From Symbiodinium sp. CCMP2592 (taxonomy: Eukaryota; Sar; Dinophyceae; Suessiales; Symbiodiniaceae): a stretch of DNA of 64,000 bases. The stretch spans positions 242,169 through 306,168 of the forward strand of contig CAJNDT010002024.1 of the NCBI GenBank assembly GCA_905221615.1, given 5' to 3'. Each line of letters starts with the position of its first letter. The stretch's first letter is position 1. A program made the position numbers and the translations under genes. Positions 7,366-43,620 of the stretch are shown here, piece by piece. A model generated the notes under the pieces. That model searched no databases. It was not told the DNA's origin and saw nothing but the letters and a program-made list of their open reading frames with translations.

Positions 7366-7478
7366 CTGTCTGGTTCTTAGTAGGGAATGGGGGAATGGAT
7401 TATGGAGGCAATAACTGGGGATTATATAGGGACCACTATAGGATCCATTCCCCCATTCCCTACAAAGCACCAGACAGT
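7366..7478. mobile_element. Hairpin MITE family H, copy 1
   Basis: Arms CTGTCTGG..CTTAGTAGGGAATGG and complement around a short AT loop. The same core (TAGGGAATGGNGGAATGG) bounds copies at 41344 and 56892, where the loop is replaced by trinucleotide repeats. Confidence 0.8.
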
Positions 7479-17343: not shown

Positions 17344-17636
17344 GTGGAGAGTCTGAGACTTGGAGTCTGCCTGAACCCTCAGTGTTCAGTGTGTGCAGTG
17401 CTTAGAGTAGTCACTCCGAGTCATCCTCAGCAGAATGTTATGGGGAAGCCGCAACAAGAATCGCATTGGAGAGTCCACATAAAGCTACATAGGTCATCAT
17501 CAGATCCCAGAGTCGTTGTTTGCCAAGGGTGGTGATAGAAGCGCCTTCTTTTCGATATTCCTAGTATGGTGCCCTCCAGAGCAAGGGTTGCAAGTTTCCG
17601 AGATATGAAATCATCCGAAACCTTCAACCTACCCCA
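17344..17636 (+). CDS. Exon region before a K element, unknown protein
   Basis: One frame from 17344 is open for about 63 codons (ESLRLGVCLNPQCSVCAVLR..., later HWRVHIKLHRSSSDPRVVV). A second open stretch, 17564-17636, reads either VASFRDMKSSETFNLPQ or ALQSKGCKFPRYEIIRNLQ, depending on frame. It ends at a GTAAAA donor formed by the start of element K copy 1. Exon limits inside this block are uncertain. Confidence 0.4.
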
Positions 17637-17758
17637 GGGTAAAAGGAGGGACCCTTAATAAGGACCCCTAGGTATATACCCTTAATATAGCTATAATATA
17701 CCCATGAAATAGCCCATTATAGGGTAGGGGTCCCCATTAAGGGTCCCTCCTTTTCCCC
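17637..17758. mobile_element. Hairpin MITE family K, copy 1
   Basis: Arms AAAAGGAGGGACCCTTAAT and complement, with an inner GGTATATACCCTTAATATAG region. The first bases GGTAAAAGG give a good donor. A relative lies at 60138-60240. Confidence 0.85.
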
Positions 17759-17794
17759 CTTGAACCTACCCAAAACCCGAAACCGGAAACCCTA

Positions 17795-21207: not shown

Positions 21208-21944
21208 CCTAACCCCACACAAGGATCGTCACCCCCCGCTCCCCCTGCCGACTGTGAGTTGAAAAGATGCATCATCCCCTTTCCTCCTCATGAATTAAAA
21301 AGCTTTTCCAGGCGAAGAACCCCTTCCCTGGCTTCCGGGAGCTCAGAGCTTCGTCTATGGTTAAGGGCTTTAGGGTTTAGGGTTTCAAGTTTGTAGTTTG
21401 CGGTTTAGGGTTCGAACGAAGAAGTTTAAGGCTAATTTAGGGTTTGATGTTATGTGGTGGCGTTATAGGGCTTTAGGGTGTACTTGCTGTTGGAGCCTAG
21501 AAGGTTCATACGTTTCTGTAACTCCTGCAGGGTCCAATTGTCCAGGCGCCGAAACCTTAACCCCTAGACCCATACCCCTTCAACCCCATAACCCTGAACC
21601 CCGAAACCCCATAACCAACCCCCCTCCCCCCCAGGCCCCTAAACCGTAAACCCGAGGGGAAGGAGTCTCCGGAATTCGTGACATTCTTCAGCCATTCAGT
21701 CCGATATTCTGCATAGGTCTGCATAGCTCTAGCATAAAACACAGCATTGCAATGCTTTCAGGGTTTAGGGTTGAGCCCTGTAGGGCCCTATTATAGACAG
21801 CTTATCGAACAAGAGACTTGTAATGAAGCTTTTCCACGATATTGTAAACCATCTAGAACCCTTGTAGAACCCGCGTAACTCGTAAAGCCCTAGGTAGATC
21901 CAAGTGGCAGATCTGAAATACACAGTACTGTGTACAACATGTAG

Positions 21945-21974
21945 GGTAAAGATGCCTGGATATTTACGAATACT
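21945..21974 (+). CDS. Exon 1 of the element-split gene (21.9-23.3 kb)
   Basis: Ten codons, GKDAWIFTNT, between the acceptor CATGTAG (ends 21944) and a GTTCTG donor at 21975. Phase 0. The same frame upstream is open apart from that TAG. First of eight exons that join without a stop; protein unknown. Confidence 0.45.
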
Positions 21975-22077
21975 GTTCTGGGTTGTCCTTTGGGATCTTG
22001 TTTAATTAATTTCCTCTACCATTTTGCAGAGAACCATAATAGTAAATAATTCTCAAAGGGCTTAAAGGACAACTCAG
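21975..22077. mobile_element. Hairpin MITE X forming a whole intron
   Basis: The intron GTTCTG...CTCAG of 103 bp is one hairpin: GGGTTGTCCTTTGGGA at the left pairs with CAAAGGGCTTAAAGGACAAC at the right. Confidence 0.75.
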
Positions 22078-22128
22078 TGTTCGTTAGGGTTCCTTTATCA
22101 TGCGTGTCCGACAATACCTATAGGACCT
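22078..22128 (+). CDS. Exon 2 of the element-split gene
   Basis: Seventeen codons, CSLGFLYHACPTIPIGP, phase 0 at both ends. Left acceptor CAACTCAG, right donor CCT|GTAGTC. Both neighbouring introns are transposable elements. Confidence 0.6.
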
Positions 22129-22224
22129 GTAGTCTCCATTGTAGTTCCTTTTTAGGGTTACCTTCTAGGATCCTCAATGTAATATTGGTTACACCAAAAA
22201 AAGGAACTACAATGGAGACTGTAG
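22129..22224. mobile_element. Hairpin MITE family B, copy 3, forming a whole intron
   Basis: 96 bp from GTAGTCTCC to GGAGACTGTAG. The flanking CTGTAG is present at both ends, so the donor GT comes from the left copy and the acceptor AG from the right copy. Confidence 0.85.
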
Positions 22225-22309
22225 GTAGACCCCCAATCCCCACAAAGGCGACGATTGTTACTCCAGCTTGCCCGGTCTGTGTTGAACTCTTCCTCTGAAC
22301 CCTGCAAAG
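22225..22309 (+). CDS. Exon 3 of the element-split gene
   Basis: Continues in phase 0: VDPQSPQRRRLLLQLARSVL, then NSSSEPCK and one base, with an AAAG|GTTACT donor at 22310. Basic and Leu-rich. No stop across the junctions. Confidence 0.6.
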
Positions 22310-22430
22310 GTTACTACATTGGCCTAAATAATTACCTATATACTATTTTGGGCCCTCCTTGTGATAATATTATAGTAGAATGGGCCCCGAAACCCTATTC
22401 TGATTATTGAGGCCCCTACATTAATGGAAG
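22310..22430. mobile_element. Hairpin MITE family G, copy 1, forming an intron
   Basis: GTTACTACATT...CTACATTAATGGAAG. Arms TGGCCTAAATAATTA and complement, inner GGGCCC pairs, and a direct repeat CTACATT at both ends. Confidence 0.8.
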
Positions 22431-22455
22431 CCTGCTCTTATTTCCGCATGCTGAG
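22431..22455 (+). CDS. Exon 4 of the element-split gene
   Basis: 25 nt. With the leading base from exon 3 it reads ACSYFRML and leaves two bases. The donor is a perfect GAG|GTAAGA. Confidence 0.5.
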
Positions 22456-22508
22456 GTAAGACAACGTGGTTCGCATGCATGGGCTATCCTGAGGACGTGC
22501 CACCGTAG

Positions 22509-22580
22509 CTGTGGGGAGTTCGATGCCTCGCGAGTCCGCAGTCCAAAATCGTCCCGCGGCCACCTTGCTTTGCCAGTTAG
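22509..22580 (+). CDS. Exon 5 of the element-split gene
   Basis: After a 53-bp intron without an element (GTAAGA...CACCGTAG) it continues CGEFDASRVRSPKSSRGHLA, then LPV, ending TTAG|GTTACT. Basic, Ser-rich. The phase fits on both sides. Confidence 0.55.
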   Translation: MWGVRCLASPQSKIVPRPPCFAS

Positions 22581-22680
22581 GTTACTATGAGGCCCTTTTC
22601 AGGGTCCCTTAAGGGCCCTTGTAAAGGGTATTGAAAGGGCCGGTGTAACCTTCAATCCTAAACTTCAACTTTCGCCCAAG
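22581..22680. mobile_element. Hairpin element Y forming an intron
   Basis: GTTACTATGAGGCCCTTTTC at the left pairs with GAAAGGGCCGGTGTAACC. Contains a CCCTTAAGGGCCC palindrome. Ends TTTCGCCCAAG. Confidence 0.75.
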
Positions 22681-22714
22681 CCCTTCAAGCAGCGACGACC
22701 CGAGAATTACGTCC
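22681..22714 (+). CDS. Exon 6 of the element-split gene
   Basis: Reads PSSSDDPRITS in the continued frame. The next junction is a GAGTAA (GA-type, known in dinoflagellates) or the overlapping GTAACC. The GA reading keeps phase with exon 7. Confidence 0.4.
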
Positions 22715-22799
22715 GAGTAACCGAAGCTCCGGCAAGTCTCGGATCCCGGAAAATCTGAATAATATGGTTTGGGGCTTAGGGTTCAGAGTTTGGATTTAG

Positions 22800-22907
22800 G
22801 GCCTGATACTGCGCGTTGCTCTGGAGTTGCTGTGGGGTTTCTATAACCTTTGCTGTGTGCCTGTGTGGATTCAGGGTAAGGTTTTAGGCCAGCTTACCGT
22901 CACTAAT
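22800..22907 (+). CDS. Exon 7 of the element-split gene, membrane segment
   Basis: The acceptor GGATTTAG ends at 22799. 36 codons in phase 0: GLILRVALELLWGFYNLCCV, then PVWIQGKVLGQLTVTN, ending AAT|GTAGGG. The first half is hydrophobic enough to span a membrane. Confidence 0.6.
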
Positions 22908-23003
22908 GTAGGGGCCTTAATATTCAATAATTAATTCCCTATACTGTTTTGGGGGTTCCTTGTTATTTTTAGTCTAACTAGTAAGGCCCCTATACAATGC
23001 AAG
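22908..23003. mobile_element. Hairpin MITE family G, copy 2, forming a whole intron
   Basis: 96 bp, GTAGGGGCCTTAATATT...GGCCCCTATACAATGCAAG. TA duplication at 22909 and 22991. The donor is G plus TA plus the element. Confidence 0.85.
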
Positions 23004-23255
23004 GTTGTGTTGGCTCGGGGGTTCAGAGGTAAGCCCATCTCATATCCAGCAATCTGCTCCAGAGCTGCTGTGGAGATTCTTCTACGTCCTGTTCTCGCCC
23101 TCTTCGTGCTGCTCCTTCTATGGAGCACACCCCGCCAAACACAAGCCGCGAGTATCGGGCAAACCCGATGTCAACTCGCAGACTTGCACGAAGCTGTTGT
23201 TTGGGCAGGTTGGAAGGATAGTTACCGGACTTCAATGCCGGTGTTCGAATCGATT
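23004..23255 (+). CDS. Exon 8 of the element-split gene, membrane segment
   Basis: Continues phase 0 for 84 codons: VVLARGFRGKPISYPAICSR, a strong hydrophobic segment (ILLRPVLALFVLLLLW), then a polar region CQLADLHEAVVWAGWKDSYR. A stop is met at 23256; an exon end at GTGTTCG (23241) or splicing before the stop is possible. With exon 7 it suggests a membrane protein with at least two spans. Unrecognised. Confidence 0.6.
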
Positions 23256-23326
23256 TAGAGGTTCAGGCTGGAGCGAGTTAGCAAAGTATGACCGGAGAAT
23301 GCTGCAGTCAAAAACAAAATCCGTCA

Positions 23327-23430
23327 ACCCCAGCAAGCAGGATAAGAACACGAGTCTGGGAATACGACGATGACAACTTGCCATACGCAGAAGGCAGATT
23401 CTCCAAGCCCTCCGTCAGTAGTACAAACTA
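23327..23430 (+). CDS. Possible further exon of the same gene
   Basis: After CAACCCCAG an open stretch reads RIRTRVWEYDDDNLPYAEGR, then FSKPSVSSTNYRQC. Linking phase to the previous exon is not established. Confidence 0.35.
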
Positions 23431-28567: not shown

Positions 28568-28628
28568 ATAAGGGCCTGTAGTATAATGGGTCCAAAAACC
28601 CTATTCTGATTATTTAAGGCCCCTACAT
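28568..28628. mobile_element. Family G right half
   Basis: TAATGGGTCCAAAAACCC..TTTAAGGCCCCTACATT matches the right half of family G. The left arm is absent. Confidence 0.6.
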
Positions 28629-28639
28629 TCGACTCTGAG

Positions 28640-33700: not shown

Positions 33701-36260
33701 GCTACCCCCCCCCTCAAAGATCTATGTTTTTTGCTCTTTACTGTGCTTTTACGGCTTAAACAGTAAACCGAGGTTGACCTGAAACAACAAGCCCTTGAAC
33801 CTAGCACCCTGACTTGACACACCCAAAGAACCTTGTAAACCTCCACGCGACAAATAGACGCCTGAAACGTTCGCCAGAAAGCCTCCCCGAAACAAAATAA
33901 GCAACAGTTAGCCCGAAAGCCCCGTGAAACCTATTCTAAAACTGTCAGCCTGTCAGCCCGAAAGCTTCTAAAACAGTTAGCCCGAACGCCTCCTTGAAAC
34001 CTAATCTGAAACAGGTAGCCCCAAAGCCATCTTGAAACCTACACCGCCAAATCACTAGCCTTTAACAGCATCCGTGGGGGCTGTCTGTGCAGCAACTTGG
34101 GCTGCGCGGTTTATGATTGAAGCAAACGATGCTCATGATGCTTTATAGGGGGAACAGCCAACTTACAACCTGACGTCCTGCAGCGGAATCCTTGCATTAC
34201 ATTCACACAGACCACAATGTGATGTTTATGAAAAGTTGAAAGAAAACAACTGAAGCGTTAGATAAAAAGGGTGTTTAATTTAGTTAAACTGTACACACCA
34301 CATGAACGGAAAAATCCATTGACAAGTTACTGCATTAAAGGACAGGGAAAAAGGAGTAACATGACCGTTTGCAATTAGTTAAAGGTAAGGGATACACGCT
34401 TTTATTCTGCTAAAGTTTGTCTTGTTTTGCTTGTTTCCGTTACCTTTAATTCCTATTTGTCTACCTTTCCGAATGCAAGGTTTATAAGCCAAAGAAACTA
34501 AAAAGGTAAGAAACAAAAGGAACCAACAGACAAATGAAGTGAATGAAATGAGAGACTTGCAGGCTTCTGTGTTCTCTGTTTTTGTTCTTTTCCCTTCGAA
34601 CTCGTTCCTGTACGCTTTCATTCAATTGGATTCATTCCGCTCACTTTGTTCCCTCCATTCATTACACTACATTCAGCGACGTGAAGGACGAACGAAGCCC
34701 CAAAAACACAATTTAATGCAGTGAAAGGAACAAAACAGCAAGGACATGTGCGTCGTTTTATGCTTCATTTCACTACGTTTAGTTGCGTCGTGTGGCTTAG
34801 TTACTTTTTCGTTCGCTTTTTTAGGTGTCTTCAGGTGCTTTATTAAATTCCAATACGGAATACCCAATAACACAAACGGAAGAAGAACAAACCAAGACAT
34901 AAAGTGAGTAGTTTGAATGCATTTTACTTAGTAGAAGGAACAGAAGCGAAGTGAAATGAATGCCTGCTTTGATGGAGAACTGAATGTTGATTCCATTCCC
35001 TTTTGTCTGTCGTTCTTTTATTACGCAGAAACCGAAGCAAGAAGAACGACAACAACAAGAGCACACAGGCAAAGGATACAACATCAGAAGGCAGCGGCGG
35101 GTGGGTGTAAGGCGCATGCTTAGGTTGTTGCTTCGTTTGGCTCAATCCAAGTACGCATGCTTTATCTTTACTTGCATAAACGTGCCAAAGAACAACGACC
35201 CACCGCACATTACATTCACTTCATTCTTAATCTCACGGTCACCTCTCCTGTCTTCATGTCACACACTAGAATGAGAAGGTAATAGTGTGAAGCGAACCCA
35301 GAGACGCCGTGAATTAATTTCAATGGAACGCTGTGGAAGCGTGAATTAAGTGAAACAAAGCTTCCGTTCGTTCTTCGTTCTGTGCTGCGTGTTTAAAATC
35401 AACAACAAGGCTCGCTTTGTCATTGTCGTTGTTGCAGTCAACTACATACAAGAGCCAGAACTAACTTCACAGACCTCTGCCACTCGTCTCTCAGCGGCTA
35501 GCGTGGCAAAAAATTCAACTCAATGAAAAGAAACGTAAACAAAGTGCACGGTATCTTCTTCCATAGATTTGGCCTTTTGTGCACGATTTTCCGGTTTCAA
35601 TTTGATTACTTTGAAGCAAAAAGGCATATGCACATGTAGACTGCCGCAGACGTGCACATGCAGACTGTCACAAGAGCCGTGGAGATAACAAAACCAAGAA
35701 AGGCAGAGGACCACATTGAAGTATTGAAACACGTTGAATTTCAAGATTGCGTGGGTCTGCTGGGAGGAATCTTAGATTCAGGGACGGCCATATTGAAATA
35801 TTGAGGCCATATTGAATTTCAATATGGCGGATCCAAGATCCAAGATCCAAGATTGCACGGGACTCCTGGGAGGAATCTTGGATTCAGGGACGGCCATATA
35901 TATATTGAAATATTGAAGCCATATTGAATTTCAATATAGCGGATCCAAGATCCGATCCAAGATTCCTCCCCAAGAGCCCTGGGGAATCTTGGATCTTGGA
36001 TCTTGGATCCGCCATATTGAAACTCAATGTGGCAGGGGGCCATATTGAAATATTTGGCCACATTGGGTTTCAATATGGTCGGTCTTTGCGGTCATGAGGA
36101 GTTGATCTGAGATACGCGAGTGGAGGGAAGGGGGGTGCGAGCAATCATGAGGAGTCGATCGTGAGTGGAAGGACGGTCATGAGGAGATGGTAATGAGTGG
36201 AAAGAACTGAAAACAGCTTAAATACATAGATCTTGGGGGGGGGGGGGGGGGGGGGGGACC
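33701..36260. mobile_element. 2.56-kb element with terminal inverted repeats, tandem copy 1
   Basis: Begins TACCCCCCCCCTCAAAG then ATCTATG and ends with its complement CATAGATCTT plus a G run. Inserted in a (TA)n tract. Inside: a 60-bp-type tandem repeat of GAAACC/AGCCCGAAAGCC (about 33860-34060), a 1.4-kb AT-richer middle with no long frame, and a 3' part (35750-36080) of CAATATGGCGGATCCAAGAT inverted repeats. No transposase seen; likely non-autonomous. Confidence 0.8.
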
Positions 36261-39806: not shown

Positions 39807-40405
39807 TGATCCTACATATCTTCATCCTCGTCCGAAATATCCACTCCTCAGGTGCTTCCGCTGCCGCCGACAGATCCGGCGAGCATGCAGGCCCCAGCGC
39901 ATCCCCACGACATCCCTTTAGGGTTTTAGAGTTTAGGGTTTCTTGAGTTCAGCGTTTTAGAGCTTAGGGTTTGTTGGTGGCAGTGAGTGGATAGGGCCAA
40001 GTCTGGGGGGTTTGGGGTTGACCCGAAACCCCGAACACCAGGTCGAGGAAGCTGCCTCCCTCCCCTTTCAGCGCTTTTCTTGGCACAGAAAGTCATTGAA
40101 GGGCTCGACGCTGCAGATTTCTAGGGTTTGTAGGGGTTTGGGGTAGCAGCATACCGAGAAGCTGTGCTTCAGAGCCATCGGCATGTATGTAGCGGAGTCC
40201 CAGCATCAGGACATCCACTTGCCTCGATATGAATCTGGGAGGAGACATTTAAAAGCTCCGTGACATTACCACATCTTAGGAACATACGGCCATGTTCTGC
40301 CACAACCTACTCTTGGTGCGCCACTGTGAAGTCGATCTTCGGCTTATCGAAATCCTACGAAACATGCATCATAGTGGGTTAAAGTAGGGGCTATATGGGT
40401 TACTA

Positions 40406-40504
40406 TGGGGGCCTAGATAATTACCAATGCTGTCTTGGAGGTTCCGTATTGTAATTAATTGTAGTACAATGGGCCCCAAAACCCTATTCTAGTTATCAAG
40501 GCCC
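40406..40504. mobile_element. Hairpin MITE family G, copy 3
   Basis: GGGGGCCTAGATAATTACC ... AACCCTATTCTAGTTATCAA, then GGCCC. The right end plus ATATTGTAG supplies the acceptor for the next exon. Confidence 0.85.
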
Positions 40505-40513
40505 ATATTGTAG

Positions 40514-40634
40514 GTTGCGGACATGGCCCACCTGATCCAGGCGAGCAGCGTGGCAAACGGCGAGCTGCCAAACATCGACGTCTTCGTGAACCTCACCATC
40601 GCGCATGAGGCGTCTGTTCCCGATTCGGCACCAA
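40514..40634 (+). CDS. Exon directly after a G element, unknown protein
   Basis: Starts after CATATTGTAG. VADMAHLIQASSVANGELPN is followed by IDVFVNLTIAHEASVPDSAP and an AA|GTGAGA donor at 40635. One of the most convincing exons. Function unknown. Confidence 0.6.
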
Positions 40635-41501: not shown

Positions 41502-41675
41502 TAGGTCTTGGATTCGGGAGCTTCGCACCCCTTCCTCAATGCAGTCGATGCCACTGAGTTTGGAAAGGCCAAGACGGTTGGTGTTGAGTTAGCAGATGGC
41601 CAGATGGTTGAGCTTAAGCAGACGAGCAAGGGTACGCTGCTCGAAGAAAAGGGAAGCAATCCCTAGGCGCCAATA

Positions 41676-43488: not shown

Positions 43489-43620
43489 AGGGGCCTAAAT
43501 TTCTACCTATACTATTTGTTTTTGTTTGTTTTGATTATTTTTTTGAGGGGGGGGGGGGGGTCGTTATTGTAGTTTTAGTCTCATGGGCCCCAAAACCCTA
43601 TTCTAATTATTAAGGCCCCC
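43489..43620. mobile_element. Hairpin MITE family G, copy 4, with homopolymer loop
   Basis: GGGGCCTAAATTTCTACCTA ... CTATTCTAATTATTAAGGCC. The loop contains a TTTGTTTG run and a G run of about 15. Confidence 0.85.

Follow-up and report, generated by a model that had tools for sequence, protein, structure and literature searches.

Five short hairpin elements lie close together at positions 21945 to 23255 of the 64,000-nucleotide stretch of Symbiodinium sp. CCMP2592 DNA analyzed here (the window, part of contig C2024 in an assembly of 1.098 Gb and 5383 contigs). A first-pass annotation had read them as introns of one eight-exon gene. Our results indicate that they are very probably a chance cluster of MITE-like TIR transposons in non-coding DNA and that there is no gene with the proposed exons. 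Family X, which has one copy in the cluster, and several unrelated elements appear to form introns in real genes at other loci of this genome. This outcome keeps a false gene off the record and gives concrete introner cases. Whether X reads as a silent insertion or as an exact intron is a matter of the 4 bp that it has duplicated, so the question of how a transposon becomes an intron can be tested within one genome.

Results

Five hairpin elements of the cluster

The near-palindromic elements that the annotation had placed here are present in the sequence, in the order X, B, G, Y, G across 21978-22997 (Table 1). The X copy is bordered by the 4-bp target duplication TGTT (21974-21977 and 22078-22081). 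Family X has at least 40 BLAST matches genome-wide and 297 exact copies of its left-end 22-mer, and a perfect 4-bp target duplication flanks 14 of its 20 best genomic matches; its many similar copies thus have TIRs and a target duplication, the hallmarks of a transposon. Tc1/mariner-type MITEs are about 100 bp long, near-palindromic, and flanked by a TA target duplication, and family B, with at least 40 copies in the genome, resembles them in all three respects. It combines TIRs with a target duplication of constant length, as expected of a MITE, the flanks being TA/TA in 23 of 35 full-length copies (the cluster copy and 34 others, a nonrandom sample, as the loci were chosen for carrying B). 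The cluster copy itself has GA and TA as flanks, a TA-type duplication, and a B copy preceded by G would read GTACCTATAG.... The GT proposed as the donor of B is present in 4 of the 35 copies and AT in 30, and GT..AG was therefore rejected as a property of this element.

Relatives of G are found in the window at 40399-40507, 28579-28629, and 43583-43619. A second copy of Y was not found in about 350 kb of this genome's sequence that was searched. Of the four families that had been claimed, X, B, and G are borne out by further copies, and Y is not in the sequence searched. One G-like element is followed by TAG and then by a coding-like segment, and no other element in the window comes as near to providing a 3' splice site.

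About 86 element intervals were counted in the window, some few of them being tandem or low-complexity stretches, and their density reaches a maximum of five per 1.1 kb. The same maximum recurs near 53.2 kb and at 59.5-60 kb. The idea that such clustering is unique to 21.9-23.3 kb was rejected, as two further 1.1-kb stretches hold five.

Table 1. Positions of the cluster elements, the proposed gene, and the predicted introns of the NIF gene (window coordinates unless a locus is given)
Feature	Position	Strand	Description	Basis or remark
Proposed eight-exon gene	21945..23255	+	Not supported; apparently non-coding	Coding score, Pfam, homologue search
Element X	21978..22077	+	100-bp TIR element, ends CTGGGTTGTCC...GGACAACTCAG	Ends common to 20 relatives
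Element B	22126..22225		100-bp near-palindromic TIR element, CCTGTAG...CTGTAGG	35 full-length copies compared
Element G, copy 1	22317..22421			TA on both sides (22315-22316, 22422-22423)
Element Y	22580..22650		TIR element of ~71 bp, GGTTACTATGAGGCCC...GGGCCGGTGTAACC, ends approximate	Inverted ends read directly
Telomere-like filler	near 22768-22802		Between cluster elements	
Element G, copy 2	22906..22997		Decayed, ends approximate	End pairs with G copy 1
G-like element	40410..40507	+	Just upstream of coding-like segment 40517-40612	
NIF gene	L026:126-1767 (C4556:1265525-1267166)		Six exons, five introns	Exons read by protein
NIF intron 1	L026 222-431		Border repeat GAAGCT	Donor GA, acceptor AG
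NIF intron 2	L026 537-639		Border repeat GTCTCTT	Donor GT, acceptor AG
NIF intron 3	L026 730-870		Border repeat GAGGC	Donor GC, acceptor AG
NIF intron 4	L026 967-1425		Border repeat AGGACTTGACT	Donor GA, acceptor AG
NIF intron 5	L026 1506-1675		Border repeat GAA	Donor GA, acceptor AG

Reading frame and splice sites of the proposed gene

GT and AG dinucleotides are present at all six junctions that had been listed. The claim of an open frame through eight exons stands in part: exons 1 to 5 join in an open frame over 263 nt, exon 8 has no stop up to 23255, and it is intron 6 that breaks the model. With the other proposed exons kept fixed, no GT-AG intron 6 preserves the frame; GC donors allow 2 frame-keeping choices and GA donors 16. 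The introns had also been described as cut inside or next to the element ends. Coincidence with the ends is not observed, as the donors are displaced by -3, +3, -6, +2, and +3 nt and the acceptors by 0, -1, +6, +30, and +6 nt from the ends of the five elements, proposed intron 5 running 30 nt past Y. A G[T/C/A]...AG intron that takes out its element exactly is possible for none of the five, and compared to the uninserted sequence the proposed introns alter the product by +1, +6, -14, -26, and -2 nt, with a change of frame in four of the five (for Y and the second G, these comparisons rest on approximate ends). For X and B, G[T/A]...AG introns one base short of exact are possible, which would result in a frame shift, and with TGTT as the target duplication no exact intron is possible for X. 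The joined flanks of this X copy score 0.6 bits. When the five elements and one target copy were removed, the forward frames of 21801-23400 contained 15, 11, and 12 stops, which is weak evidence, as that sequence still includes introns 4 and 6 together with flanking DNA.

In 25 tiles, read on both strands and including one that overlaps the region, and in shuffled sequences, we allowed at most seven GT-AG introns with lengths of 50-240 nt. All 50 tile-strands and all 40 shuffles could be spliced into an open frame, for which between two and five introns were needed; for the region the number is four. The joined open frame is therefore no more than what chance provides when splice sites are free, and it was rejected as proof of a gene. 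The main result in favor of the proposed gene comes from a test in which introns had to cover the five elements with the proposed offsets, two free introns were added, and the limits were fitted to the proposed model. The region passes this test, as do 11 of 200 shuffles in which the real elements were kept, 2 of 200 in which everything was shuffled, and 6 of 382 other strand-regions of the window, all six being minus-strand stretches that overlap this cluster. The region does equally well on either strand. Raising the number of free introns to three lets 34 of 200 shuffles and 22 of 382 strand-regions pass, and the region fails when one free intron is allowed or when acceptors are held within ±7 nt.

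Coding signal and homology

Codon frequencies of chaperonin exons from the same assembly, amounting to a few kilobases, served as the coding model. Eleven known exons were scored by leaving each out in turn, two stop-containing family hits being excluded; for three long genes of contig C5051, scores were obtained only with the genes kept in the model. Exons 1 to 6a of the proposed gene score -0.55 and exon 8 scores -0.24 bits per codon, and all 11 known exons score between +0.16 and +0.65; since the model was derived from so little sequence, with four of the 11 exons coming from one gene, an atypical gene could score poorly. Among the 153 stop-free runs of at least 80 codons in the window, exon 8 ranks near the 90th percentile. 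Within 21.8-23.4 kb, the best plus-strand coding segment reaches 6.6 bits and a nine-codon minus-strand segment 10.4 bits. In the same scan, a 69-nt CCT exon segment at locus L056 reaches 20.8 bits, the maxima of ten whole-window shuffles are 12.2-18.4 bits, and two coding-like segments of the window (40517-40612 and 41535-41651) reach 31.0 and 21.7 bits, respectively. A coding-like segment of at least 15 bits with normal residue diversity was not found in 21-24 kb, and the GC contents of the three codon positions are nearly flat at the proposed gene.

Pfam gave nothing above the cut-off in the six frames of 17.5-28.5 kb, where a sub-threshold match to DUF4834 (E=0.017) was obtained in a minus frame, and no match on the plus strand of 39-44 kb, which contains both coding-like segments. 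The search for homologues of the joined protein that the annotation had suggested, done without intron 6, yielded 270 word-sharing candidates, none of them at E<=1, and comparison of two window segments with solved structures gave nothing useful. A protein-coding gene at 21945-23255 is not supported, because a coding signal, a homologue, and a GT-AG intron 6 are all absent.

Family X as a probable introner family

Target duplications that start with GT occur in 28 of the 297 X copies, compared to 5.7% expected from the frequency of GT alone (p=0.006). We took 21 of these 28 copies (L077-L097), of which 17 had both ends recognizable and 4 were dropped, and compared them with 18 of the 19 non-GT best X matches. 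The joined 19-nt flanks are more coding in the 17 GT copies than in the 18 non-GT copies (p=0.005), and with 110-nt flanks the GT copies have a higher coding score in sense than in antisense (p=0.022). Among the 20 best X matches, G[T/C/A] and other target duplications (4 versus 16) did not differ significantly (p=0.10).

Protein evidence was obtained at L091 (C2112:1484542-1484866), where removal of GTGA together with X brings ankyrin repeats into one frame. The joined 72-residue protein matches Ank with an E value of 3.5e-15, the halves alone giving 5e-5 and 5e-6, and the best Ank stretch (10-41) spans the junction after residue 36. The two target copies, GTGA and GTCA, differ at one base. 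X appears to interrupt this ankyrin gene exactly, as a predicted intron. Six joined X-flank frames were scanned; the one at L077 (C417) is weakly MFS-like (E=0.031, which is below the cut-off and was not seen with a shorter piece), and the four besides L091 and L077 gave nothing. The results support X as an introner family in this genome, and we infer that such copies are spliced.

A NIF-type phosphatase gene with five predicted introns

Locus L026 (C4556:1265400-1273500) came up while copies of B were being examined and carries a NIF-type phosphatase, with a single-frame match at E=7e-11. Removal of five predicted introns gives a 186-residue protein with an uninterrupted NIF match over profile positions 2-150 of 160 (E=9.8e-31), and all five junctions are in frame. 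Each of the five identified introns is bordered by a direct repeat (3-11 bp), and the one at intron 5 extends to GAAC/GAAT with one mismatch. Inverted ends are clear in introns 1, 3, and 5 and weaker in intron 2. Intron 4 is a composite that contains a nested B as well as a tandem array, and at its outer left end it matches each of the two arms of a TIR element at window positions 7366-7478; the element of intron 3 has an 86% relative at 17636-17763, so that relatives of both occur in the window itself. In the other sequence compared from this genome, introns 2, 3, 4, and 5 have 10, 20, 105, and 12 matches, respectively (those of intron 4 are mostly due to the nested B, among the matches listed), and intron 1 has none. 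A stretch in common (51 bp, 90%) is seen only between introns 2 and 5, which indicates at least four kinds of element. The set looks transposon-made, and a GT-AG rule would miss four of the five introns. The B copy in intron 4 is also the only one of the 35 that was recognized in a real gene, and there it lies within an intron made by a different element. When the available sequence of this genome was scanned generically for exact introns, 49 noisy candidates were obtained, which we do not count as evidence; the 40 that were listed include one of the five NIF introns.

Discussion

The cluster is best read as five short, non-autonomous, MITE-like TIR transposons that would have come together by chance in non-coding, telomere-like DNA, either intergenic or within a long intron, with the transposase presumably supplied from elsewhere. 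Insertion duplicates the target, and the duplications observed here are 4 bp long in X and of the TA type in B and G. An intron would arise only if the element enters coding sequence and its left border receives G[T/C/A] from the duplicated target, with AG present on the right; splicing would then take out the element together with one target copy. Judged from sequence and protein homology, X and unrelated families fit this geometry in real genes elsewhere, and the cluster elements do not fit it: they lie where a coding signal and a homologue are absent, and none of the five is exactly removable. The suggestion that the elements are introners, with several families in one gene, is not supported at the cluster and finds its support in the NIF and ankyrin genes. 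As splicing seems to accept GT, GC, or GA donors from the target duplication, almost any TIR transposon might become an intron in this genome, so that introner status would reflect a relaxed 5' splice-site rule of the host and not special families; we offer this as a tentative idea that is somewhat less probable than not.

It is very improbable that the region is a real, fast-evolving gene with unusual codon use and with introner introns at inexact splice sites. Such a gene would pass the hairpin-constrained test, as the region does and few shuffles (11/200) or other strand-regions (6/382) do, and the rank of exon 8 among the long stop-free runs would agree with it. X seems to form introns elsewhere, and the GA and GC donors that suit the NIF gene would rescue intron 6. 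Published introners may also splice inexactly, with Aureococcus copies adding 12 bp (PMC9860276). However, the coding score is negative, there is no homologue, and the minus strand passes the same test equally; moreover, exact removal fails for all five elements, and the donor GT of B is confined to 4 of 35 copies. The stops in every forward frame after removal of the elements also argue against it, although weakly, because introns 4 and 6 were kept and the stretch was wider than the gene.

A larger gene could also span the cluster within a single long intron, the elements being intronic passengers and not introns themselves, which we regard as rather unlikely. Likely exons in this genome directly adjoin telomere-like filler and elements. 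Examples are the CCT-like exon of L056, the RRM-like one of L030, and the two coding-like segments near 40-42 kb of the window. The CCT-like match is below the Pfam cut-off, and the RRM-like exon was recognized by eye, Pfam giving no match. Against a long intron stands the failure to find a coding-like segment of sufficient score and diversity in 21-24 kb. This possibility is compatible with a chance cluster, as only the label of the surrounding DNA differs. At L056:2220-2297 (C4668), a locus that is partly N, the CCT-like chaperonin exon begins where an element ending in CCTCCAAGCAG stops.

The doubt may be extended to the genes elsewhere: the NIF and ankyrin cases might be accidents of assembly or pseudogenes, and the families might be ordinary MITEs that give rise to introns nowhere. 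In agreement with this, coding-like segments adjoin element ends in 4 of 23 cases compared to 2.8 expected (p=0.30), which is no excess, the G[T/C/A] comparison among the 20 best X matches gave no significant difference, and the L091 target copies differ at one base. It is nevertheless very unlikely in view of the spliced NIF match of 9.8e-31 with five junctions in frame and of the joined ankyrin match, which crosses the junction and is much stronger than those of its halves; the enrichment of GTNN duplications (28/297 versus 5.7% expected from GT frequency alone) and the more coding flanks of the GT copies (p=0.005) also argue against it. We therefore retain the reading of a chance cluster at 21945-23255, with predicted introners elsewhere.

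Introners of dinoflagellates are already known, and the NIF and ankyrin cases add to them. Those of Symbiodinium microadriaticum, as described by Gozashti et al. (2022; PMC9860276), have TIRs and 4-bp TSDs, carry the 3' splice site in the element, and obtain the 5' splice site from the TSD. X in L091 and L077 is similar, with AG inside and the predicted 5' splice site provided by the duplication, whereas the cluster copy, with TGTT as its TSD, permits no exact intron. This likeness to the introners of that species was judged on anatomy. The family mix had been thought possibly new; the concept is in fact already published, as Polarella glacialis is reported to have 15 introner families, each accounting for 100 or more introns (Roy et al. 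2023, as summarized in a review, PMC11453091). In Polarella and its relatives, as seemingly here, many unrelated families create introns in one dinoflagellate genome, a likeness drawn from the review's description. The introner elements of Amoebophrya are described by Farhat et al. (2021; PMC7789003) as hairpins with inverted repeats, 3- to 5-nt direct repeats over the exon/intron borders, and many splice motifs. The predicted hairpin introns with border direct repeats resemble these, but the few cases here all have G[T/C/A]...AG borders and come from a 1.1-Gb genome. Introner content has also been reported for Prorocentrum and Effrenium (PMC10666404, PMC11114475).

Other features of the window and the genome

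Rfam at gathering thresholds and ARAGORN gave no matches in the window, which has a GC content of 0.42-0.53 in 2-kb steps and contains 193 telomere-type heptamers. The window and the element-rich loci L017-L036 have a GC content of about 0.47 and usually many such heptamers; the spliced-leader and chaperonin loci (L009-L016, L053-L055) have a GC content of about 0.53-0.61 and few. Between window positions 33967 and 38581, several repeats are found a second time some 2565 bp further on (33967/36532, 34379/36944, 35742/38307, and 35820/38382), which suggests a large direct duplication. The dinoflagellate spliced-leader 21-mer has 429 exact copies genome-wide and its reversed control 0, in keeping with a dinoflagellate genome. 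Tandem spliced-leader remnants are present around 1501-1521 in L010, L012, and L014 and suggest genes re-inserted from trans-spliced mRNA. On contig C5051, near 128155-129663 and 1023267-1027412, there are three long uninterrupted chaperonin frames, and elsewhere chaperonin genes are intron-rich; these frames may be retrogenes or contamination.
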